Positions 25,173-50,075 of a stretch of DNA of 54,522 bases are shown here, in pieces. How positions within the stretch are numbered: the stretch's first letter is position 1; every line of letters begins with the position of its first letter. This DNA comes from Candidatus Vecturithrix granuli (GTDB taxonomy: Bacteria > Moduliflexota > Moduliflexia > Moduliflexales > Moduliflexaceae): positions 50,444 through 104,965 of the forward strand of contig DF820474.1 of NCBI GenBank assembly GCA_000739535.1, written 5' to 3'. The position numbers and the translations under genes are program-made. The notes below the pieces were generated by a model. That model was given only the letters and a program-made list of their open reading frames with translations, was not told where the DNA came from and did not search any database.

Positions 25173-26705
25173 TTATGCTGCCGCCGCTGTAATTTCATGG
25201 ACGTTATATGTCGCGCAGGCCATGATCACGTCTTCACTCAGTTGGCTGCGGTTCAGAATGCCAGTGACCTGACCTTCGCGCATCACGACCACGCGGTCGG
25301 ACATCAGCAGAATTTCAGGCAGTTCGGACGAAATCAACAGAATGCCGATCCCTTCCAGCGATAACTGGTGCATCAATTTATAAATTTCAACTTTCGCCCC
25401 TACGTCAATCCCATGGGTTGGCTCATCCAGAATTAAGAGCCTGGGTTTGGTGGCTAACCAACGCGCCAGAACGGTTTTTTGCTGGTTCCCGCCGCTTAAA
25501 CTGGAGACGGGATCATCAAAGTCGCCGAATTTCAAATTCAATTTGTTGACGAACTCGGTCAGAATCCGCGTGACGTTCGCATAATTGATAATACCGCTGC
25601 GGCTCATCGTCTGACGCGGCATTTCTGCCAGGGCCATATTAAACGCAATCGGCAGTCCCATAAAGAGCGAGAGTTTTTTGCGATCCTCTTGCACCATCGC
25701 CAATCCATGAGCAATGGCTTCGGCCGGGGAATGAAAACGCACGGGCTGCCCTTCAAACACAATTTCACCGGAAGTGAATGGATCCGCGCCAAAAATGGCC
25801 CGGGCAACCTCGCTGCGGCCGGCGCCGACTAACCCGGCAAACCCTACAATTTCCCCCTGTCGAATCGTAAAACTGACATCTGCAAAATGCGGACCGGTCA
25901 ACTTGCGCGTCTCCAATAAGACACCGCCTAAGGCATGACCTACATGGATATTTTCGCGGTGCAGCTCGCGCCCCACCATCATGCGAATAATTTTTTCTAC
26001 GCTCGCCTCGGCTTTCCGAATCGTGTCCACATACTCGCCGTCGCGCAATCCTGTAATGCGGTCGGAAATCCGCAGCACTTCTTCGATCTTATGAGAGACG
26101 TAAATAATGGCGACTCCTTGCTGTTTCAAGCTTTCAATCACGCTGAATAAACGTTCCGTTTCCGCGCCGGCCAGCGAGGAATTCGGCTCGTCCATTATGA
26201 TCAGGCTGGCATTGATTGAAATGGCTTTGGCGATTTCCACTAACTGGCGCTGCGAGATGCTCAGATCATTCACGATGGTGTAAGGATCAATCTCCAGGCC
26301 GACCTGCGCCAGGACGCGCCGGGTATCTTGTTCTGCAGTTAGCCAGTTGATGCGTCCGAAGCGGCTCGGCATACGTCCCATATACACATTTTCAATGACA
26401 TTCATCGTGGGCAGCATGGAGAGTTCCTGGTGGATGACGGACAACCCGGCCTGAATCGCTTCTATCGGCGAAATGAAATTGACTTCCTGTCCTCGAAAAT
26501 AGACCTTGCCGCTATCACGTTTTACGATGCCGCCCAAAATTTTCATTAAAGTGGATTTCCCCGCGCCGTTTTCGCCCACCACCGCATGAACCTCTCCGCG
26601 CTGCACGTCCAAATGGACATTGTGCAAGGCTTGTAATCCGCCATAGCGTTTTGAAATGCCTTCGATAATTAATATGCGATTATCCATAGCCTGGGTATCC
26701 TGCAA
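25173..26705 (-). CDS. Sugar ABC transporter ATP-binding protein (RbsA/MglA type, two ATPase domains)
   Basis: This 510-aa protein has two fused nucleotide-binding domains, as is usual for ribose/galactose-type importers. The N-terminal domain shows GENGAGKST, an LSISQRQ signature and IIMDEPNSSL. The C-terminal domain shows GLVGAGRSE, LSGGNQQK and LILDEPTHGIDVG. The reading frame may start at MQDTQAMDN or at the internal MDNRIL. It is the last gene of a minus-strand set after permease and binding protein, and energises import of a sugar or related ligand at the inner membrane. Confidence 0.95.
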   Translation of the reverse strand: MQDTQAMDNRILIIEGISKRYGGLQALHNVHLDVQRGEVHAVVGENGAGKSTLMKILGGIVKRDSGKVYFRGQEVNFISPIEAIQAGLSVIHQELSMLPTMNVIENVYMGRMPSRFGRINWLTAEQDTRRVLAQVGLEIDPYTIVNDLSISQRQLVEIAKAISINASLIIMDEPNSSLAGAETERLFSVIESLKQQGVAIIYVSHKIEEVLRISDRITGLRDGEYVDTIRKAEASVEKIIRMMVGRELHRENIHVGHALGGVLLETRKLTGPHFADVSFTIRQGEIVGFAGLVGAGRSEVARAIFGADPFTSGEIVFEGQPVRFHSPAEAIAHGLAMVQEDRKKLSLFMGLPIAFNMALAEMPRQTMSRSGIINYANVTRILTEFVNKLNLKFGDFDDPVSSLSGGNQQKTVLARWLATKPRLLILDEPTHGIDVGAKVEIYKLMHQLSLEGIGILLISSELPEILLMSDRVVVMREGQVTGILNRSQLSEDVIMACATYNVHEITAAAA

Positions 26706-26758: not shown

Positions 26759-27790
26759 TTACTGACTTTCAGTCCAGTATTGATCAAGGTTGTCTTTGGT
26801 GACTAATTCGGATTTGGTTAACAGTTTCGCCGCTGGCGGCACCGTTCCGGAAACCAGATAATTGAACAGCCTGATTGCCGGATCATGCCCCTGGGCGTAA
26901 GGATTCTGACTAATCGTCCCGGTAATGACGCCTTCTTTGATCAGACGCATAACCTCATCCACGAAATCGTAGCAGACCACTTTAATTTGACCGGTTTTGC
27001 CAGCGTCTTTCACCGCGTTTCCAGCGCCGAATTGGCCGCCCGCAGCAACGAAGATTGCAGCTAAATCAGGATTCGCCGTCATAAAGTCGCGCGTTTGAGT
27101 ATAGGCCACGTCCGACTTATCATTGCTTTCCACTTCGCCCACAATTTGAATGTCAGGCGCTTCTTGCTTCAGGGCTTCAATAAACCCTTTACGTCGAAGT
27201 TCATGCCCTTCTACGGCGAAAAATCCTGTAATAATGGCGACTTTCCCTTGCTTGTTTAGCGCATCCGCCACAATCTTGCCGGCCGCTAGGCCCTGTTTAT
27301 ACAGGTCTGCGCCGACAAAGAAGAGCCGTTTATTGGGTTCAGCGGTTTCCACATTAAAGGTTGCCACCGGAATACCGGCCTCTACAGCCTTATTGATGTA
27401 CGGAACCAGTCCGCTATCGCCGGCAACGGTCGCAATCGCGTCATATTGCTGCACAATCGCGGATTCAATGGCTGACGCAAACACTTCGGTCGTATGTTGA
27501 TCCCCGGGCACGATCCAATCCACTGAGCCATTAAACTCCTTCAGTTCTTCATTCGCATCCAGCGCGCCCTGTTTCACCGGAATCCAGAAGGGATTGTTTT
27601 CAAGTCCCAACACGGCAATGCGAATAGGTTTCTCGGATTTGGCAATCGGTTTTGCCGCGCCTTCATCATCCATCGTAGCTTCGCTTGCAAACTCCGGGCC
27701 CGCCGGCAAGTTTTGAGCGAAAACAACTTGAGAGACGCAGAACGTCACGAACACGAACAACAATACCAGCATATTTTTTACAGGTTTCAT
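26759..27790 (-). CDS. Periplasmic sugar-binding protein of ABC importer (RbsB type)
   Basis: The protein has 343 aa with a clear signal peptide (MKPVKNMLVLLFVFVTFC, cleavage likely after VFA near residue 25). A type I periplasmic binding fold begins at IRIAVLGLENNPFW. The motif order (VDWIVPG, YDAIATVAGDSG, GIPVATFNVE, LAAIFVAAGGQFGAG) matches the ribose/galactose-type binding family. The ligand is not identifiable by eye. It lies 53 bases upstream of the ATPase gene and 176 bases downstream of the permease gene, with a hairpin repeat in the latter gap. Confidence 0.94.
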   Translation of the reverse strand: MKPVKNMLVLLFVFVTFCVSQVVFAQNLPAGPEFASEATMDDEGAAKPIAKSEKPIRIAVLGLENNPFWIPVKQGALDANEELKEFNGSVDWIVPGDQHTTEVFASAIESAIVQQYDAIATVAGDSGLVPYINKAVEAGIPVATFNVETAEPNKRLFFVGADLYKQGLAAGKIVADALNKQGKVAIITGFFAVEGHELRRKGFIEALKQEAPDIQIVGEVESNDKSDVAYTQTRDFMTANPDLAAIFVAAGGQFGAGNAVKDAGKTGQIKVVCYDFVDEVMRLIKEGVITGTISQNPYAQGHDPAIRLFNYLVSGTVPPAAKLLTKSELVTKDNLDQYWTESQ

Positions 27791-27966: not shown

Positions 27967-28974
27967 TCAACTCCGCCCACTGGGTTTGCGGAGTTGATCG
28001 AGCGAAACGGCCAGAATAATCACGACTCCGATAGCGATGGTCTGCATGTACGCGGAAAAATGGAGCAAGACAAACGCATTACGCAGAATCGCCATGATGG
28101 CAGCGCCGATAATGGCCCCAATAATCGTGCCCTCGCCGCCAGCCAAACTCGCGCCGCCAATCACCACTCCGGCGATAACGTCCAGCTCTTTGCCCATGCC
28201 TGCATTGGTCGCGGCCGTCGAGAGCAAACCGCCATCCATAATGCCAGCGAGCGCACATAACCCACCAGTTAACAGATACACAAAAATTCTGACCCGGTCA
28301 ACATTGACGCCCGACAAGCGTGCGGCTTCCAGATTACTTCCCACCGCGTAAATCTGGCGTCCTAGCACGGTATGTTTGAGGAAGAGGCTGAAAATCAGCA
28401 CCAGGACAGCCATTTCAATGACCGGAAAAGGCACCGGGCCGATATAACCGTTCCCTAAAAAGTTGATCGCCTGATTGCGCATCGGGATATTACTCGCCAC
28501 TGCACCCTGGAGGCCGGTCGCAAGGAGGTAGGTTAACCCACGTCCGATACTGAGCATGGCTAAGGTCGTGATAAACGGGTTGACCTTGATCTTCGTAATA
28601 ATCAATCCGTTGGCAGCCCCAATAAGAAACCCTGTACCAAAACCGCCGATGAGGGCTGCGAAGGGGGGTAATTGGTGATAGAGTAACCGCGCCGTGACCA
28701 TGCCGGATACGGCAAGGATGGATCCGATGGAAAGATCGATCCCGCCCGTGATGATAATCATGGTCATGCCGATAGCCATAATCCCGACAGTGGACATGCC
28801 GCGCAGGATGTTGAAAATATTTTGCACGTTCAAAAAATAAGGACTGGCAAAACTCATAATTACAATCAGTGTGACCAGCGCAATAAAGACCCCCATTTCC
28901 CTGACCCGCAATAACCGGGTCAACAGATTCCGTCGTCCACCAGGTTTTGATACCGTTTGCATATCTGTTGTCAT
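27967..28974 (-). CDS. Sugar ABC transporter permease (RbsC type)
   Basis: The protein has 335 aa and about ten membrane helices. Family motifs include GMTMIIITGGIDLSIGS in the N-terminal half, the cytoplasmic-loop segment GRQIYAVGSNLEAARLSGVN that contacts the ATPase, and VIGGASLAGGEGTIIGA near the C-terminus. It is first in the minus-strand transporter operon. ATG 28974 follows AGAAGGGG with a short spacer. The 245-bp gap to the divergent activator contains a sigma-54 type promoter oriented into this gene. Confidence 0.95.
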   Translation of the reverse strand: MTTDMQTVSKPGGRRNLLTRLLRVREMGVFIALVTLIVIMSFASPYFLNVQNIFNILRGMSTVGIMAIGMTMIIITGGIDLSIGSILAVSGMVTARLLYHQLPPFAALIGGFGTGFLIGAANGLIITKIKVNPFITTLAMLSIGRGLTYLLATGLQGAVASNIPMRNQAINFLGNGYIGPVPFPVIEMAVLVLIFSLFLKHTVLGRQIYAVGSNLEAARLSGVNVDRVRIFVYLLTGGLCALAGIMDGGLLSTAATNAGMGKELDVIAGVVIGGASLAGGEGTIIGAIIGAAIMAILRNAFVLLHFSAYMQTIAIGVVIILAVSLDQLRKPSGRS

Positions 28975-29034: not shown

Positions 29035-29050
29035 AGCAAATCTGTTGCCA
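29035..29050 (-). promoter_or_regulatory. Sigma-54 promoter for the sugar transporter operon
   Basis: On the minus strand the sequence reads TGGCAACAGATTTGCT. The -24 GG and -12 GC are in the exact spacing of the sigma-54 consensus (TGGCACG-N4-TTGCW). It points toward the permease start about 60 bases away. The adjacent gene on the other side encodes a sigma-54 activator, which strengthens the call. Confidence 0.75.
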
Positions 29051-29124: not shown

Positions 29125-29143
29125 GTTGACTTTCTCAGTCAAC
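29125..29143. promoter_or_regulatory. Candidate activator-binding palindrome (UAS)
   Basis: GTTGACT-TTCTC-AGTCAAC is a perfect 7-bp-arm inverted repeat. It lies about 75-90 bases upstream of the -24 element of the minus-strand sigma-54 promoter, a typical enhancer distance. It is also immediately upstream of the -35 box of the activator gene, so it could serve both activation and autoregulation. Confidence 0.55.
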
Positions 29144-29145
29144 CT

Positions 29146-29175
29146 TTGACACTGGAATGTGTTTCAAAATTATAC
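29146..29175 (+). promoter_or_regulatory. Sigma-70-like promoter of the activator-kinase operon
   Basis: TTGACA at 29146-29151 is followed after 17-18 bases by ATTATA/TTATAC (29169-29175). The start codon of the activator at 29220 lies about 45 bases downstream. Confidence 0.55.
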
Positions 29176-29219
29176 ATTCGCCATGAAACATGTATTTGAA
29201 AGAAACATAGGGACCCTGG

Positions 29220-30551
29220 ATGGAAAAATGTCTTCTGATTATTGATGACAATTCTCAATTGTGTCAAACGCTGGCGCAAAATTTTGCACGTTGCGGATAT
29301 CGCGCCTGCTATGCCATCAATCAGTCGGAAGCCCTGGAGATTGTTGCACGCCAGGCGCTTCAAGTGATATTGTTAGACATGATGCTGGGAGAAGATAATG
29401 GCCTTGACCTGGCACAGCAAATCCAGCGTATCTGCCCCCATATCCCGATTATTATGATTACCGGCTATGCCTCCATTGAATCTGCGGTACAAGCCATCAA
29501 ATTAGGAGCGTTCGATTATGTGAGCAAACCCCTGAAATTCGATCATCTCGTCGCCGTTGTCGAAAACGCTCTCAAAAGTGTTCATGCGCATGAGGTGAGG
29601 CCAGAGGCAGCAGACGCGCCAGGTATGGACTCTTTCCGCACATTGACCCATAATGCGCAGATGTTGGAGTTGGATGAGACAATTACCAAACTGGCTGCGA
29701 CGGATTTGCCAGTGTTGATTTGCGGCGAGCATGGCGTTGGCAAAGAAATCGTGGCGGATGTGCTCCATAGCCGTTCAACACGCCAGCACGCACGCATGTT
29801 GAAAGTCAATTGCGCAGCGTTTCCGGAAACCTTGCTGGACAATGAATTGTTTGGTCACGAAAAAGGGGCCTATACCGGAGCAACGACAGCCTTTAAAGGA
29901 GTGTTCGAACGCGCGAATCATAGTACACTCTTTCTCGACGAAATCGGCGACATGCCCTTAACGATTCAAGCCAAGATCTTGCGGACGCTTCAGAATCACG
30001 AGATTCGTCGTCTGGGAGGGCAGGCAACGATTCAGGTGGATGTCCGTTTTCTCGCAGCGACAAATCAAGACCTCAAAAAACTGATCCGAGAGGGGCAATT
30101 CCGGGAAGATTTGTTCTACCGGTTAAATGCGGCCACGCTTTACGTGCCACCCTTGCGGGAACGCAAGGATGATCTTCCGGTGCTGCTCAATCACTTTTTA
30201 GATGAACACGCCCATCTTACAACTACTCAGCGGAAATGCGTCAGTGAAGACGTCTTCCAGGTATTCTTGCAGTATCAATGGCCTGGCAATATCCGGGAAT
30301 TAAAGAATGTCATTCATTATGCGGCTGCAGTTTCGACCTTCGATACCATTGACCTCCGCGATCTTCCTTCGGATTTACGAAACCTTTCGCCGCAAGGCCA
30401 TACAATGAATATTCGGGAAGAAATGGAAAAAAATTTGATTCTCACGACCTTGCGCAACACCGATTATAACAAGAAAAAAACCGCTGAATTGCTGAATATG
30501 GGGCGCAAAACCCTGTATGACAAGTTAAAGAAATATGGCATCACCCTCTGA
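29220..30551 (+). CDS. NtrC-family sigma-54 response regulator
   Basis: The protein has 443 aa. The receiver (Asp53 in ILLDMMLGED, Lys103 in VSKPL) is followed by a sigma-54 AAA+ domain with Walker A GEHGVGKE (169-176), the sigma-54-contacting GAYTGA loop (216-221), Walker B LFLDE and the FREDLFYRLN and WPGNIRELKN motifs. A Fis-type helix-turn-helix closes the protein (KKKTAELLNMGRKTLYDKL). All elements of an active enhancer-binding protein are intact. It overlaps the following kinase gene by 17 bases, so the two form a cognate pair. The likely target is the divergent transporter promoter. Confidence 0.95.
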   Translation: MEKCLLIIDDNSQLCQTLAQNFARCGYRACYAINQSEALEIVARQALQVILLDMMLGEDNGLDLAQQIQRICPHIPIIMITGYASIESAVQAIKLGAFDYVSKPLKFDHLVAVVENALKSVHAHEVRPEAADAPGMDSFRTLTHNAQMLELDETITKLAATDLPVLICGEHGVGKEIVADVLHSRSTRQHARMLKVNCAAFPETLLDNELFGHEKGAYTGATTAFKGVFERANHSTLFLDEIGDMPLTIQAKILRTLQNHEIRRLGGQATIQVDVRFLAATNQDLKKLIREGQFREDLFYRLNAATLYVPPLRERKDDLPVLLNHFLDEHAHLTTTQRKCVSEDVFQVFLQYQWPGNIRELKNVIHYAAAVSTFDTIDLRDLPSDLRNLSPQGHTMNIREEMEKNLILTTLRNTDYNKKKTAELLNMGRKTLYDKLKKYGITL

Positions 30552-32370
30552 TTCGCGCGTCTTGCTGCGTTTGATTGACATCTGCCTGGATTATGGGGAA
30601 TGGCGTGCCTTGCACAAGGTGAATTTGACCATCGAGACCGCCCAGGTACACGCCATTGTCGGCGAACATGGCGCCGGAAAATCATCGCTCGGCATGGTGA
30701 TTGCCGGCATTCGGAAACCGCAGGCAGGCTTGATCACGTTTGACGGACGGTCATACCGAACTTTGACGTTAAAGGCTGCGCGTCAATTAGGCATTGCCAT
30801 TGTGCACCAACAAATCCTGTCGCTCAATGAACGGTTCACGGTGGCTGAGAATTTGTTCCTCAGCAGCGCCCCGTTCCACAGATTGATCTGGAAACAAAAA
30901 ACCGTCCAGGCTGTCGCAGATTTCTTCGCTCGCTATCATCTGACGCTGGATCCATGCATCCCGGTGGAAGAATTGAAGATTCCGGACCGAATTTTTGTGG
31001 AGATTCTGAAACATCTATACGCGCGTCCCCGACTCTTAATTCTGGATGAAGCCCTGGAAAAGCTCTCCGCGTCCGCGCTTCAACAGGTCTTGCAGATGCT
31101 TATGGAATTCGAGCAGACAGGCATGTCGGTCCTGTTTATTACGCACCGGCTTGATGATATTTATGAGTTTGCCGATAAAGTGAGCGTCATTAAACATGGT
31201 GAAATTTTAATCACGGATGATGTCTGGCAACTCGATAAATTAAATCTGATTAAAATCGCTTATACGCAAATTTCTCAGGAACCGACGCGGGAAAATCTGA
31301 ATCAAGAATTTTACCATCTGCTGAAATATAACGAAGCGATTCTGCGGAATCTGCCGGTCAATCTGCTGGTGACGGATCCCACGCATCGCATTAAGCTGGT
31401 GAATGACTATTGCCGGCAGTATTTTCGCCTGGAAACCGGAGCCTACGAAAATCTGCCGGTAACGCAGCTCGTACAGAGTCCCAATGCAGAGGTCGCGCAA
31501 CTGCTCGCGCCGCCAGACGTCCCTCGTGTAAGTCAAACCTTCTATCAAGCTCCGCTGACTATCAACGGCGTCAGGATCATCAGTAATATCAAAACCTTTC
31601 CTATTTACGATGGAAGCTTACTCATCGGCAATATTATCATTATCGAAGATATTACCGAATACGATCACATCCAGAAACAGTTATTTTTGTCGGAAAAATT
31701 GGCTTCAGTCGGCCTGTTAGCCGCCGGCGTCGCTCATGAAATCAACACACCTTTAGAAATCTTATACACTCATCTGGACTACATGAAATACCGGTTTCAT
31801 ACTGAGGAATTTCATGCGGCGATTGATACCCTCCACGAACAAATCGCCTATATTGCCAATATTGTAGGGAATTTACACTCTTTTTCCGACCATAAATCCT
31901 CCATCCCGAAAGAGATGGAACTCAATAGCGTCATACAGCGAATGCTCACTCTGGTCCGGCATCATGCGCGGCGACAACAAATTCGGATTCATTTTACCCC
32001 GTCCTCTGCGGAAGTGTTTATTCGCGCCAAGGACAATGAAATCAAACAGGTGATTTTGAATCTGCTGAAAAATAGTTTCGAAGCCATGCCCGCCGGCGGC
32101 GACATTTTTATTGCCACCGCATTAGTCCAGACTGATGGAGTCAATGCTGTGGAATTAACCTTTCGCGATACGGGCTGCGGCATCTGTGATGAGAACCCGA
32201 ATAATATCTTCTTGCCTTTTTATTCCACGAAAACGAAGGGCGGCAGCAATATCGGTCTGGGCTTGTCGGTCAGTTATGGCATTATCACGAAATATCAGGG
32301 AACGATCATCTTAGAAAATACTGCCGATTCAGGCTGTCAATTTCTCATCACGTTGCCTGTAGCGTCCTAG
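30535..32370 (+). CDS. ABC ATPase domain fused to a PAS-HisKA-HATPase sensor kinase
   Basis: The protein has 611 aa and no membrane segment. Residues about 10-235 form a single sugar-importer-type ABC ATPase domain, closely resembling the N-terminal half of the transporter ATPase at 25173. It has Walker A GEHGAGKS (43-50), Q-loop Gln92, Walker B LLILDE (167-172) and switch His204. The ABC signature, normally like LSIAQRQ, is degraded to LKIPDRI (147-153). A PAS domain (about 265-375) and an NtrB-like kinase follow (His401 in GVAHEINTPLE; G box NIGLGLSVSYGI). Retained nucleotide-binding motifs with a lost signature suggest sensing or docking rather than transport work. The gene is coupled to the NtrC-type activator upstream. 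Confidence 0.94.
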   Translation: MASPSDSRVLLRLIDICLDYGEWRALHKVNLTIETAQVHAIVGEHGAGKSSLGMVIAGIRKPQAGLITFDGRSYRTLTLKAARQLGIAIVHQQILSLNERFTVAENLFLSSAPFHRLIWKQKTVQAVADFFARYHLTLDPCIPVEELKIPDRIFVEILKHLYARPRLLILDEALEKLSASALQQVLQMLMEFEQTGMSVLFITHRLDDIYEFADKVSVIKHGEILITDDVWQLDKLNLIKIAYTQISQEPTRENLNQEFYHLLKYNEAILRNLPVNLLVTDPTHRIKLVNDYCRQYFRLETGAYENLPVTQLVQSPNAEVAQLLAPPDVPRVSQTFYQAPLTINGVRIISNIKTFPIYDGSLLIGNIIIIEDITEYDHIQKQLFLSEKLASVGLLAAGVAHEINTPLEILYTHLDYMKYRFHTEEFHAAIDTLHEQIAYIANIVGNLHSFSDHKSSIPKEMELNSVIQRMLTLVRHHARRQQIRIHFTPSSAEVFIRAKDNEIKQVILNLLKNSFEAMPAGGDIFIATALVQTDGVNAVELTFRDTGCGICDENPNNIFLPFYSTKTKGGSNIGLGLSVSYGIITKYQGTIILENTADSGCQFLITLPVAS

Positions 32371-34227: not shown

Positions 34228-34824
34228 ATGACAGGTTTGACAGCCCGACAGAAAGAGATTATTGAGGTTGCGGTGAAATTGATGGCTGAAGGCGGCATTC
34301 AGAATTTGACCATGAAAAATATCGCCCATGCAATGAACATTTCCGAACCGGCGATTTATCGGCATTTTGAGAGTAAAATGGATATTTTGCTCTCAATGCT
34401 CACGCAGTTCAAACAGCATTCTAACGATCATTTACGCAGCGCACGCGCCTTGAATGGGTCGCGATTGGCGCAGCTTGAAACGATCTTTCTCGAGCACGCC
34501 GGACGCTTTGCTAATCATCCCCACATGACCGCCGTGGTATTCTCAGAAGAAGCCTTTCAAGATGATCCGCGCCTGGCTGACCAGGTGGTTTCGATTATGA
34601 CGACGGCGGATGCAATCATTGCAGAAGTGATTGCCGAAGCCCAGCACAACGGCGAGATTCGCACGGATCTTCCCAAAGAACACCTGACCTTAATGATTCT
34701 GGGAACTCTACGTTTGATGGTCAAACGCTGGCGTTTGTCGGGCTATGCTTTTGACCTTCAGCAGGAAAGCCGGCAGGTCTGGAATTCGTTAAAAATGCTC
34801 TTAGCAGCATCTTCTTCGCCGTAG
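34228..34824 (+). CDS. TetR/AcrR-family transcriptional regulator
   Basis: The protein has 198 aa. The N-terminal helix-turn-helix shows the TetR pattern (EGGIQNLTMKNIAHAMNISEPAIYRHFESKMDIL). The C-terminal ligand-binding half is helical, without recognisable ligand motifs. It contains no cysteine cluster for an Fe-S centre, so NO sensing would have to be indirect or of a new kind. It precedes a nitrosative/oxidative defence cluster, and three promoters in that cluster share one palindrome that overlaps this gene's own promoter. Control of the cluster by this protein is therefore a strong inference. Confidence 0.94.
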   Translation: MTGLTARQKEIIEVAVKLMAEGGIQNLTMKNIAHAMNISEPAIYRHFESKMDILLSMLTQFKQHSNDHLRSARALNGSRLAQLETIFLEHAGRFANHPHMTAVVFSEEAFQDDPRLADQVVSIMTTADAIIAEVIAEAQHNGEIRTDLPKEHLTLMILGTLRLMVKRWRLSGYAFDLQQESRQVWNSLKMLLAASSSP

Positions 34825-34841
34825 GCGATACATAATTTTTT

Positions 34842-34872
34842 TTGACAGGTAAGTTAGTTAATGATAATTCAC
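34842..34872 (+). promoter_or_regulatory. Ferredoxin gene promoter with TetR operator 2
   Basis: TTGACA (34842-34847) is followed by GTTAGTTAATGATAATTCAC (34853-34872), which contains the probable -10 (GATAAT or TAATTC). The left half-site is identical to operator 1 and the right half is weaker. Placement between -35 and -10 suits repression. Confidence 0.68.
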
Positions 34873-34936
34873 AATAATTTATTTTGGGAATTGCGAGGAT
34901 TTATTCCCGAAACACCAGAGAAGAGGTAACAAATAG

Positions 34937-35713
34937 ATGAAAATCACACGCAAAATTATCAACATTGACGAAAATTTATGCGACGGATGCGGCTTGTGCA
35001 TTCCCTCCTGTCACGAACAGGCGATTCAATTGATAGAGACGCCCAACGGCAAAAAGGCACGTCTGGTGAAAGAGATTTATTGCGATGGTCTCGGCGCCTG
35101 TCTGGGAACCTGTCCGACCGGGGCCTTAACCATCGAAGAACGGGAAGCAGAAGCCTTTGATGAGGAAGCGACTCAACGTTACATTGCCGCAGAAACCGCT
35201 CACGTTGAATCCACAGAGGTCAGAAAAACGCAAGAAGTCCCGGCATTTCACGGCTGTCCCTCGGCCAGAGCGTTTCAATGGGGTGAACAAGCAGAGCCAA
35301 TCAAACAATCTGTTCAATCGTTAAAATCTGTGGTTCCGCAATCCGAGCTGCGACAATGGCCGGTACAGTTGCACCTTGTTCCGCCGAACGCATCCTATTT
35401 TCAGGACGCGAATCTGGTGATGGCGGCCGATTGCGTGCCTTTCGCGTACGCCAATTTTCATCAGGAATTTTTGAAAGGAGCAGAGAACGCGATAACGGTC
35501 GGATGTCCGAAACTGGATGATACACGCGCGTATCTGGAAAAATTGACTCAAATCATCCGGCTGAATCAACTCAAGAGCATCCACATTGTAAATATGGAAG
35601 TGCCCTGCTGTTTCGGGCTTGTGCGCCTGGTGCAGCAGGCCATTGAACGGGCCGGGGTTGACGTTCCAGTGAAGGTCACAACGATCAGTATCAAAGGTGA
35701 TAAACTGACGTAA
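34937..35713 (+). CDS. Two-[4Fe-4S] ferredoxin-like electron carrier, Hcp-associated
   Basis: The protein has 258 aa. The first cluster motif is CDGCGLCIPSC (with SCHEQAI instead of the common C..CP) and the second is CDGLGACLGTCPTGA. The remaining 180 residues form an extra domain with scattered conserved-looking cysteines (HGCPSAR, AADCVPF, VGCPKLD, VPCCFGL). Proteins of this layout commonly accompany hybrid cluster proteins in anaerobes and are presumed to supply electrons. It is transcribed from its own promoter with the shared palindrome and followed by a nested hairpin at 35718-35788. Confidence 0.92.
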   Translation: MKITRKIINIDENLCDGCGLCIPSCHEQAIQLIETPNGKKARLVKEIYCDGLGACLGTCPTGALTIEEREAEAFDEEATQRYIAAETAHVESTEVRKTQEVPAFHGCPSARAFQWGEQAEPIKQSVQSLKSVVPQSELRQWPVQLHLVPPNASYFQDANLVMAADCVPFAYANFHQEFLKGAENAITVGCPKLDDTRAYLEKLTQIIRLNQLKSIHIVNMEVPCCFGLVRLVQQAIERAGVDVPVKVTTISIKGDKLT

Positions 35714-35717
35714 TTTT

Positions 35718-35788
35718 AACCCCTCCCCAGCCCTCCCCGAAGGGGAGGGAGTCTCCCCTCTCCTTTGGAGAGGGGCCGGGGTGAGGTT
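35718..35788. repeat. Nested hairpin repeat after the ferredoxin gene
   Basis: Outer arms (35718-35732 and 35774-35788) enclose CCCTCCCCGAAGGGGAGGG (35731-35749) and a second stem with CTCTCCTTTGGAGAG (about 35755-35774). The family is the same as at 27829-27874. It could terminate the ferredoxin transcript. Confidence 0.75.
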
Positions 35789-35830
35789 CTTCAAAAAATC
35801 TCAGTATACGATAAATATTATGTAAAGTGC

Positions 35831-35858
35831 TTGACTCTCTTCTCTGAGGCATTATGAT
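35831..35858 (+). promoter_or_regulatory. Sigma-70-like promoter upstream of the hybrid cluster protein
   Basis: TTGACT (35831-35836) and TATGAT (35853-35858) are 16 bases apart. No copy of the GTTAGT palindrome is seen here. A GCGAAACT repeat lies between this promoter and the gene, so it would be transcribed into the 5' leader. Confidence 0.55.
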
Positions 35859-35912
35859 TTTTGTAGTGGTAGAAACCTTCAGAGAGGAAAATGACAACAA
35901 CCACTAAATCGG

Positions 35913-35977
35913 ATGTAGCGCGAAACTCCAGTTTCGCGGCGGTTAACAATGCGCGAAACTGGAGTTTCGCACTACAT
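35913..35977. repeat. GCGAAACT nested palindrome, copy D
   Basis: TGTAGCGCGAAACTCC... and its reverse complement ending ...TTTCGCACTACA flank GCGGTTAACAAT. This is the copy with the longest preserved outer arms. The sequence directly after it is AAAGGAGG, the ribosome binding site of the hybrid cluster protein gene. Confidence 0.88.
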
Positions 35978-35996
35978 TGACAAAGGAGGACCAATT

Positions 35997-37640
35997 ATGA
36001 GTATGTTTTGTTATCAGTGCCAGGAAGCGTTAAAGAACACCGGCTGTAACGTCAAAGTCGGAATGTGCGGGAAACCGGCGGATGTCGCCAACCTTCAGGA
36101 TGTACTAATTTTTGTTCTGAAGGGGATCGCAGTGTATGATCAAAAAGGTAAGGTTGCTGGAATCGAGCGTGACCCGGAGCTTGGCCGCTTTATGCTTGAA
36201 AGCCTGTTCACGACGATTACCAATGCCAATTTCGACGCCGCTCGCTTTGAACGTCAGATTGCCAAAGCATTAGAAATCCGCGACGCGCTGAAAGCAAAAG
36301 TCAAGACTGACTCTGCGCTGCCCGAAGCCGCGACCTGGAGTGCCAGCAATGTAAGCGACTATTATCAAAAAGGGGAAGAGGTGGGCGTGCTTTCCACTGA
36401 AAATGAAGACGTGCGTTCTTTGCGTGAATTGCTGACCTACGGCGTCAAAGGCATTGCGGCCTACGGCGATCATGCGTTGGTGCTGGGGGAGAAGAACGAC
36501 GACATTATAGACTTTGTAATGAAAGGTCTGGCCGCGACGACCAATGACAGCCTGTCAGCCGACGATCTGGTCGGTCTGGTGCTGGAATGCGGCAAAACCG
36601 GCGTGGATGTCATGGCCCTGCTCGATAAAGCCAATACTGAAACCTATGGGCATCCCGAACCGACGCAGGTGAACATCGGCGTGCGCAACAACCCGGGCAT
36701 CCTGATCAGCGGCCATGATCTGAAAGATATGCAGGAATTGCTGGAACAAACCAAAGGCACGGGCGTGGATGTTTATACTCACAGCGAGATGCTGCCGGCC
36801 AACTACTATCCGGCCTTCAAAAAGTACGACCATTTTGTCGGCAATTACGGCAATGCCTGGTGGAAACAGAAAGAAGAAATTGAGAAATTCAACGGCCCTG
36901 TACTCTTTACGACGAACTGCATTGTTCCTCCGAAAGATTCCTATAAGGATCGCCTGTTCACGACCGGCGCTGCGGGTTATCCCGGCGCGACCCATATTCC
37001 GGATCGCAAAGACGGCACACCCAAAGATTTTTCAGCGATCATTGAGATGGCTAAAAAATGTCAGCCGCCGCAAGAACTGGAAAGCGGGACGATTACAGGC
37101 GGATTTGCCCGCAATACGGTCATGAGCGTGGCGGATAAAGTGATTGAAGCCGTCAAATCCGGCGCGATCAAACGCTTTGTAGTTATGGCCGGCTGCGACG
37201 GGCGTCATAAAGAGCGCGACTATTACACCAAAGTGGCGGAAAATCTGCCCAAAGACACGGTGATTCTGACGGCCGGCTGCGCTAAATATCGCTATAACAA
37301 GCTGAATTTAGGCGACATCGGCGGCATTCCGCGCGTGCTGGATGCAGGGCAGTGTAACGATTCCTATTCCCTGGCCTATATTGCGCTGCAATTGAAAGCT
37401 GCCTTTGGCCTGGATGATATTAACGATTTACCGATTTCCTACGATGTCGCCTGGTACGAACAAAAAGCAGTGATCGTGCTGCTGGCTCTGTTGTTCTTAG
37501 GCGTGAAAGGCATCCGCCTCGGCCCGACTCTGCCCGCGTTTCTGTCGCCGAATGTAGCCAAAGTGCTGGTGGAAAAATTCGATATTAAACCGATTAACGA
37601 TGTAGAAAGCGACGTCAGCGCCATGATGACCGGCAAATAA
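35997..37640 (+). CDS. hcp: Hybrid cluster protein / hydroxylamine reductase
   Basis: ATG 35997 follows AAAGGAGG by eight bases and gives 547 aa. The N-terminal cluster cysteines are CYQCQ...TGC...GMC (5, 8, 17, 24). Hybrid-cluster ligands are visible in SGHDLKD (His), HSEML (Glu), [29 protein letters not shown] and WYEQKA. These enzymes reduce NO or hydroxylamine and can act in S-nitrosylation. The spacing of the first four cysteines fits the short-spaced class of anaerobes. A frame extension to 35949 is translated repeat and is rejected. The gene sits between the ferredoxin and cupin genes. Confidence 0.96.
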
Positions 37641-48309: not shown

Positions 48310-48773
48310 AACATCTGGCTGTATCAGGGCGGAAAAGCCATCGTTTGTGGTGAGCCATGGAAAGTTACACATCGCGTTTAATTTTTTGTTTCCCAGGAGA
48401 TCGCCATGTTTGTAAAGTGATCATGATCTAAGGTGTGCACCGTGTTGCGTAATTCGCAGATGCCAGGCATGATGGTAATTTCTGATATGGTAACTTTTAC
48501 CAGGTCAAAAATATATATTTTTTGTGTCTATATATGTTCGCCTTGTTATCTTCTGATAGCATGTATTATCGCCTTGATTTGCAGATTCTCACAATGTTCT
48601 TCCGGGCAAAAGCCTCGATTGGTCTGGAGGTCCACTCCGATCATCAACAATGTGTATTGGTCACGGGCAATGCGATTGGCAGGGTATCCATCTGAGGCTT
48701 TTACCAGAGGAACACTCAAATTTTCGTTCTATAGAAAATCGCTATGTTTGTAGATCGATTGAGAGGTGTGAGC
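48310..48773. other. AT-rich intergenic stretch
   Basis: I see no convincing gene. A frame at 48433-48753 is rich in Cys, Ile and Phe and lacks a ribosome binding site. ATCGCCATGTTTGTA (48400-48414) is nearly repeated just before the next gene (AATCGCTATGTTTGTA, 48737-48752), suggesting an insertion or a decayed gene between two copies of one start region. Confidence 0.4.
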
Positions 48774-50075
48774 ATGAAGTATAAAATTTTCATTGGAATG
48801 CGCGAAATTGCTGGATACTATACAAACTTATCGAAAGGGTTTCGCGCGAAAGGACATGATGTGACGCTGTTTGATTCAGTCCCGCACCCGTTTCAATATG
48901 AACGTGATGCTGAGACATTACCTCCCCTTCTAAAGGCGTATTCATATTTTGCCGGATTGCGTTCGCAAAGACCTAAGAAGTTTATGATGAGACAAATAGT
49001 GTATCTCATAGCAAGCTACGTGAGTAAAGGTCTTTTTTTTCTCTATAGTTTGTTTCGATATGATGCCTATATTTTCAGCTTTGGCACATCATTTTTTCCC
49101 AAAAATTTTGATTTGCTTATTTTAAAAATATTTCGCAAGAAGGTGATCTGTAACATTGCGCATGGCTCTGAAGCCAGACCGATTTATATTAATGGGGCAT
49201 ATCGTCATCCAGATCCACAATCCTCTCTCTCTACTCAACGGATCATACAAGATTCTTCACGCATGAAGCATAAAATCAAGTTTATTGAACGCCATGCTTC
49301 CCTTGTTATTGCGGCACCATTGTCATCTCAATTCATCAAAGGAAAAGTGATCAACAGTTTTTTTTTAGGGATTCCTTTTAGCAAAAAAACGACTGTCTGC
49401 TTTAAAAATAGGAAAACGGATATTGTCCGCATACTGCATTCACCATCCCATCCTGTTGCAAAGGGTACTCATCTCATACGTCAGGCTATTACTGCCTTGA
49501 GGAACCGAGGGTATGCGATTGATTATGTTGAAGTGATAGGTCAGCCTCATGACGTCGTCTTGAAAGAACTTGAACGATGCGATTTTGTTGTCGATCAGGT
49601 GTATAGTGATACTCCCATGGCTGGTTTTGCAACAGAGGCCGCTTTTTATGGAAAACCTGCAGTTGTAGGAGGGTATGGATGGGCAATGTTAAAAAACATC
49701 CTTCCCCCCCACATTTTCCCGCCAAGCCAAATTTGTCATCCGGATACTATAGAGGAAGCAATTGAACAGTTAATTGCTAATCCTGATTACTGCTTGGAAT
49801 TAAGCAAGCGAGCCCACGAATTCGTTACAGCGCATTGGCGAGCTGAACTCGTTGCTGAAAACTATATCCGGCTTCTTGAAGGTAATATTCTTGACGAATG
49901 GTGGTTAGACCCCAATACTGTTGTTTATGTAAACGGCATGGGGCTGTCAGAAAGAGACGCACAGAATCTTGTCGCAGAGGTTGTGAGGTATGGAGGCGCT
50001 TCGGCTTTACAACTTGATGATAAGCCACAATTGAAGCAAAAATTTTTAGAGTTTGCAAATATTATATTTGGATAA
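48774..50075 (+). CDS. Glycosyltransferase (GT-B fold, GT4-like)
   Basis: ATG 48774 with GAGAGGTG upstream gives 433 aa. The N-terminal half (KIFIGMREIAGYYTNLSKGFRAKGHDVTLFD) and C-terminal half (RILHSPSHPVAKGTHLIRQAI, DFVVDQVYSDTPMAGFATEAAFYGKPAVVGG) fit a GT-B enzyme with the E-x7-E region modified. A segment near residue 400 is unusual for the family. It would add a sugar to the lipid-linked repeat unit on the cytoplasmic face. Confidence 0.82.
   Translation: MKYKIFIGMREIAGYYTNLSKGFRAKGHDVTLFDSVPHPFQYERDAETLPPLLKAYSYFAGLRSQRPKKFMMRQIVYLIASYVSKGLFFLYSLFRYDAYIFSFGTSFFPKNFDLLILKIFRKKVICNIAHGSEARPIYINGAYRHPDPQSSLSTQRIIQDSSRMKHKIKFIERHASLVIAAPLSSQFIKGKVINSFFLGIPFSKKTTVCFKNRKTDIVRILHSPSHPVAKGTHLIRQAITALRNRGYAIDYVEVIGQPHDVVLKELERCDFVVDQVYSDTPMAGFATEAAFYGKPAVVGGYGWAMLKNILPPHIFPPSQICHPDTIEEAIEQLIANPDYCLELSKRAHEFVTAHWRAELVAENYIRLLEGNILDEWWLDPNTVVYVNGMGLSERDAQNLVAEVVRYGGASALQLDDKPQLKQKFLEFANIIFG

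Follow-up and report, generated by a model that had tools for sequence, protein, structure and literature searches.

Histidine kinases with an RbsA-related ABC domain are encoded beside NtrC-type regulators and Rbs-type sugar importers

The genome of Candidatus Vecturithrix granuli (Moduliflexota/KSB3) encodes a soluble histidine kinase whose N-terminal part is a degenerate nucleotide-binding domain (NBD) of the ABC sugar importer type. This kinase belongs to a family that recurs with an NtrC-type response regulator and an Rbs-type importer as a conserved cassette. Given this conservation, the motifs of the regulators and the sigma-54 promoter elements found upstream of the importer operons, the kinase-regulator pair very probably controls the importer. 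The cassette lies in a stretch of 54,522 nucleotides (contig DF820474.1, positions 50,444 to 104,965 of the forward strand; henceforth referred to as the window), and its features are listed in Table 1.

Table 1. Features of the fusion kinase cassette, in positions of the window.
Feature	Position	Strand	Evidence or remark
RbsA-type double-NBD importer ATPase	25173..26705	-	Pfam, motif alignment
Periplasmic sugar-binding protein (Peripla_BP_4)	26759..27790	-	Pfam
RbsC-type permease (BPD_transp_2), leads importer operon	27967..28974	-	Pfam
Sigma-54-type -24/-12 element, TGGCAACAGATTTGCT	29035..29050	-	76 bp upstream of permease gene, first of importer operon
Two dyads, GTTGACTTTCTCAGTCAAC; TGTTTCA-N17-TGAAACA	29125..29190	.	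Sited where an NtrC-type enhancer would be
NtrC-type response regulator: receiver, sigma-54 AAA+ with GAYTGA, Fis-type HTH	29220..30551	+	Pfam, motif check
ABC(pseudo-NBD)-PAS-HisKA-HATPase fusion histidine kinase, 611 aa	30535..32370	+	ORF and Pfam
ABC nucleotide-binding domain, residues 8-228, RbsA NBD1-derived	30556..31218	+	Pfam, tree, motif alignment
PAS-like domain, about residues 261-375	31315..31659	+	PAS_4 in family members, 3a0r alignment
HisKA domain, phosphoacceptor His401 in VAHEI	31711..31893	+	Pfam, motif check
HATPase_c catalytic domain	32035..32364	+	Pfam, motif check

The original prediction had described a soluble ABC-PAS-HisKA-HATPase fusion, paired with an NtrC-type activator and divergent from an RbsC-RbsB-RbsA-like importer, and all of this was recovered, with the kinase coordinates exact. 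Pfam identified ABC_tran (residues 26-174, 1.1e-18), HisKA (393-453, 6e-7) and HATPase_c (501-610, 6e-19), and no transmembrane segment was detected, the maximum hydropathy being 1.36 over 19 residues. The regulator gene overlaps the start of the kinase gene by 17 bp, and the importer genes are on the minus strand. The kinase chain contains one NBD, as against two per chain in RbsA. The PAS_4 domain, present in 17 of 20 family members by Pfam, falls below threshold in the window kinase, which aligns to the sensor protein structure 3a0r from residue 261 on. HisKA and HATPase_c were found by Pfam in all 20 members, each of which also keeps the ABC domain, and the kinase boxes (H-box His, N-box, D-x-G-x-G and GLGL) are intact in 35/35 members. 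By these box motifs, the window kinase and its relatives are orthodox HisKA histidine kinases. Because there are 35 intact full-length members in two phyla, the fusion is not an accident of assembly. A monomer structure model of the kinase, built from three sequences, had a mean pLDDT of 47.8, too low for the model to be informative.

Six full-length copies of the kinase are present in this genome and three in one genome of the same family. A search of 296 Spirochaetota genomes found the kinase in 8, and a second query recovered it from 16 of 393. A wider sample of 385 genomes, mostly domain-wide, with few candidates scored per genome, gave only two others at E<=1e-55, so that at the sensitivity used the family looks restricted to Moduliflexota and Spirochaetota. 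A plasmid collection contained no relative at E<=1e-40. One stretch (L014, C8:158000-177999) carries two kinase cassettes within about 15 kb, which belong to different subfamilies and each have an importer. Elsewhere (C19:188380-188835; L018 5369-5815), a 148-aa ORF matches the catalytic C-terminal part of the kinase at about 60% identity and has none of the other domains; it is probably a decayed kinase copy.

To which ABC proteins is the N-terminal domain related? In a tree of NBDs, all 20 from the fusion kinases fall into a single clade (support 0.996). This clade attaches to the N-terminal RbsA NBD (0.84), and not to the C-terminal NBD, a topology that supports descent of the kinase domain from RbsA NBD1. 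Without exception, the 35 members have the Gly-Lys of Walker A, the Gln of the Q-loop and the Asp of Walker B, and the catalytic Glu of Walker B is kept in 32 and the switch His in 23, the window kinase being one of these. Its Walker A reads GEHGAGKSS (residues 43-51), and the Walker B Asp/Glu are at 171-172. The replacement of GEN by GEH in Walker A is a mark of the family (His in 33/35). The signature glycine is found in 0/20 fusion NBDs (LKIPDRI stands in its place in the window kinase) and the D-loop PTSAL is replaced. The signature of RbsA NBD1 is weak too, and the LSGGN of RbsA NBD2 is invariant. Judged by what these motifs are known to do, the domain is expected to bind ATP without forming the canonical hydrolysing sandwich, and it looks like an ATP-binding pseudo-ATPase. 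The original prediction of an ATPase domain as sensor is thus in need of amendment, the nucleotide-binding motifs being kept while those for dimerisation and hydrolysis are lost, so that this is no normal ATPase domain. Residues around the Q-loop, the predicted docking site for the coupling helix, showed no special conservation among the fusion NBDs; retention of this segment is unremarkable, and it has therefore been left out as evidence for docking.

The Rbs/NtrC neighbourhood, whose recurrence among homologues the original prediction had proposed to look for, is indeed recurrent. An NtrC-type regulator is adjacent to the kinase in 35/35 loci, often with overlapping genes, and 33/35 have an Rbs-type importer no more than 6.5 kb away. 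The first 20 loci had the regulator directly upstream in every case and an RbsA-type importer within 6.5 kb in 18. Another 15, collected once the pattern had been noticed, had both regulator and Rbs-type importer in 15/15, a count that includes two near-copies of one locus (L129 and L130) and an importer missed by ORF calling and recovered by tblastn (L128). There are two exceptions. At L017 the kinase is found by a Liv-type importer and an ilvE-like gene, and an Rbs-type importer (L079) is located about 10 kb off, with a sigma-54 element and as sister of the linked importer of L117. At L050 (7662-16130) kinase and regulator stand by araB/araD/araA-like genes (names read from the sequence) and a LacI-type regulator; the stretch read contains no importer, and a sigma-54 element was not found upstream. 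The L050 kinase has Ala for the Walker B Glu.

The phosphoacceptor Asp and a GAFTGA-like loop are kept in all 20 regulators checked, by which motifs the partner is an NtrC-type sigma-54 response regulator; rpoN (sigma-54) is encoded in this genome. A link to sigma-54 transcription had also been part of the original prediction, and it gained weight from the promoters. With weights hand-set from the consensus TGGCAC-N5-TTGCW, a -24/-12 element (score >=0.8) preceded the leader gene of 18 of 19 linked importer operons, versus 4 of 36 other RbsA operons, the latter almost all from this one genome (Fisher p 9e-10; rank test p 2e-8). Within this genome alone the figures were 5/5 for linked operons and 4/36 for controls. 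Among the later-collected loci, automatic scoring gave an element in 11/14; at L117, L120 and L125 sites of 0.92-0.96 were obtained after the leader gene or its start had been set by hand, and the L128 site scored 0.90. Of the four positive controls, two (L079 and L088) group as sisters with linked importers (support 100). The L088 stretch (C21:780000-790000) contains an Rbs-type importer from 3059 on, with a strong sigma-54 element and as sister of the linked importer of L049. No fusion kinase was found in these 10 kb, and control of the importer may come from another part of the genome. As for enhancers, no shared dyad could be identified in the importer-regulator intergenic regions of other loci, which makes the two dyads of the window weak candidates.

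The linked RbsAs do not group together in the RbsA tree, which shows 18 state changes, at least 14 of them forced by strong branches. This indicates that one kinase type has been joined repeatedly with different importers, or that importers have been swapped beside the kinase. Given that these polyphyletic importers each have their own sugar specificity, a sensor that reads the importer is a simpler explanation than a sensor of a single sugar. No convincing mark of the linkage was seen in the permease, in which the column best separating linked from unlinked proteins reached 0.581 (95% shuffle value 0.577), nor in RbsA, where the best column (0.55) was below the shuffle value of 0.568. At E<=1e-60, the neighbouring RbsA had no relative among solved structures.

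On the basis of the computed architecture, descent, motif loss, cassette conservation and sigma-54 element on the importer, and with ATP binding, phosphotransfer, docking and the exact readout as the parts that we infer, we propose a transport-coupled two-component system, a model to which we give an even chance. Its input module would be the former first NBD of RbsA, binding ATP and forming no normal hydrolysing sandwich. This NBD would dock at the coupling-helix site of the permease, or against RbsA, and thereby read the state of the importer. A state dependent on both nucleotide and dock could then pass through the PAS domain and a coiled coil to HisKA/HATPase, the kinase would phosphorylate its NtrC-type partner, the product of the overlapping gene, and this regulator would switch on the importer operon from its sigma-54 promoter, so that a feedback loop is closed. 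Docking on the permease or RbsA, suggested by descent, motif pattern and synteny, is itself evenly poised. Rather doubtful is the wider reading of a new sensor class, in which the pseudo-NBD was captured once and occupies the site of the real ATPase on the permease, so that phosphorylation, and with it sigma-54 transcription, would directly reflect whether the permease is empty or at work, for many importers. In this family, the ATPase fold itself seems to have been turned into a sensor, in a single fusion re-used with importers of many lineages. The fusion kinase would be a clean soluble system to study the conversion of transporter state into phosphorylation, and would mark which importer each kinase controls.

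A different way to account for the invariant Walker A, Q-loop and Walker B Asp residues (35/35) along with the loss of the sandwich motifs is a nucleotide switch, i.e. a free-standing ATP/ADP sensor, through which the kinase would report cytosolic energy charge and switch the importer without touching it. We consider this unlikely, as it leaves unexplained both the specific descent from RbsA NBD1 and the near-universal presence of Rbs-type importers, instead of energy genes, as neighbours. Similarly improbable is that the PAS domain senses an imported sugar or metabolite in the cytosol, with the ABC domain serving only as tether, dimeriser or relic. With a mean pairwise identity of 0.26, compared with 0.34 in the NBD and 0.41-0.44 in the kinase core, PAS diverges more than any other domain, which would suit a ligand sensor, and it could adapt to each sugar; however, an NBD that is present in all members, with ATP-binding motifs invariant in 35 loci, does not resemble a relic. 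The fusion might also act mainly on transport, the NBD replacing RbsA NBD1 against the LSGGN of NBD2 and so throttling the importer, with signalling secondary. The NBD1 descent, the intact Walker A and Q-loop and the invariant LSGGN of NBD2 would fit, but the intact kinase core, the conserved partner regulator and the presence of a sigma-54 target, together with the loss of the D-loop and of part of the switch histidines, make this very unlikely. That the pair is merely found near sugar importers that abound in these genomes (48 RbsA genes in this one) is hardly credible and was rejected, since about 1.2 of the first 20 loci were expected to be linked (13 kb times RbsA gene density, giving 0.015-0.085 per locus, summed over loci) as against the 18 observed, and sigma-54 elements are concentrated on the linked operons.

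Only a few kinases are known to tie the expression of an importer to its own activity. In the Bce-type system BceAB-BceRS of Bacillus subtilis, a histidine kinase reads the activity of an ABC transporter and induces the transporter genes (PMC6978683, PMC8534201). BceS, however, is a membrane kinase with two TM helices acting on a peptide-antibiotic transporter, whereas the window kinase has no membrane segment, contains an ABC NBD of its own and has an NtrC-type, sigma-54 partner; with a soluble kinase and such a partner, the window system falls outside the Bce family. A transporter-derived domain serves as sensor in KsAmt5 of Kuenenia, an ammonium transporter-histidine kinase fusion (PMC8534201). 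There the membrane-integral transporter itself is fused and no ABC importer is involved, in contrast to the domain derived from an ATPase subunit in the window kinase. The proposed system also resembles MalK-MalT of the E. coli maltose importer, in which the ATPase relays the state of the transporter to the activator of transcription of the importer genes. MalK is the real hydrolysing subunit and acts in trans on a STAND activator, while in the window a separate pseudo-NBD is fused to the kinase. Pst signalling requires PhoU, and PhoR is without the ABC domain that the window kinase has. In that system, PstSCAB-PhoU-PhoR, the state of an ABC importer is signalled to a histidine kinase (PMC6978683). 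Among PAS kinases of the AtoS/ZraS type with NtrC-type regulators, AtoS is the best NCBIfam match of the kinase half (192 bits, cut-off 646), and AtoC that of the regulator; AtoS matches only from residue 211 on, the N-terminal part being here the ABC NBD. In the literature searched, which covered few subscription journals, we found no paper on an ABC NBD fused to a histidine kinase, and a survey of histidine kinase domain organisation leaves ABC transporters unmentioned.

Further genes were noted in other parts of the window. A 443-aa ORF without a Pfam match at 1e-5 (48744-50075) is located downstream of epimerase and ATP-grasp genes. On the near side of it, at 34228-37640, are a TetR regulator (34228-34824), a ferredoxin-like ORF (34937-35713, read from the sequence) and a gene for a Prismane/hybrid-cluster protein (35949-37640). 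The region 114-22257 is a run of sensor kinases, comprising a HAMP-PAS kinase, receiver-HisKA kinases, a 7TMR-DISM kinase, a Reg_prop/Y_Y_Y propeller ORF followed by a kinase-receiver ORF, and two multi-PAS or GAF/Hpt hybrids of more than 1200 aa.
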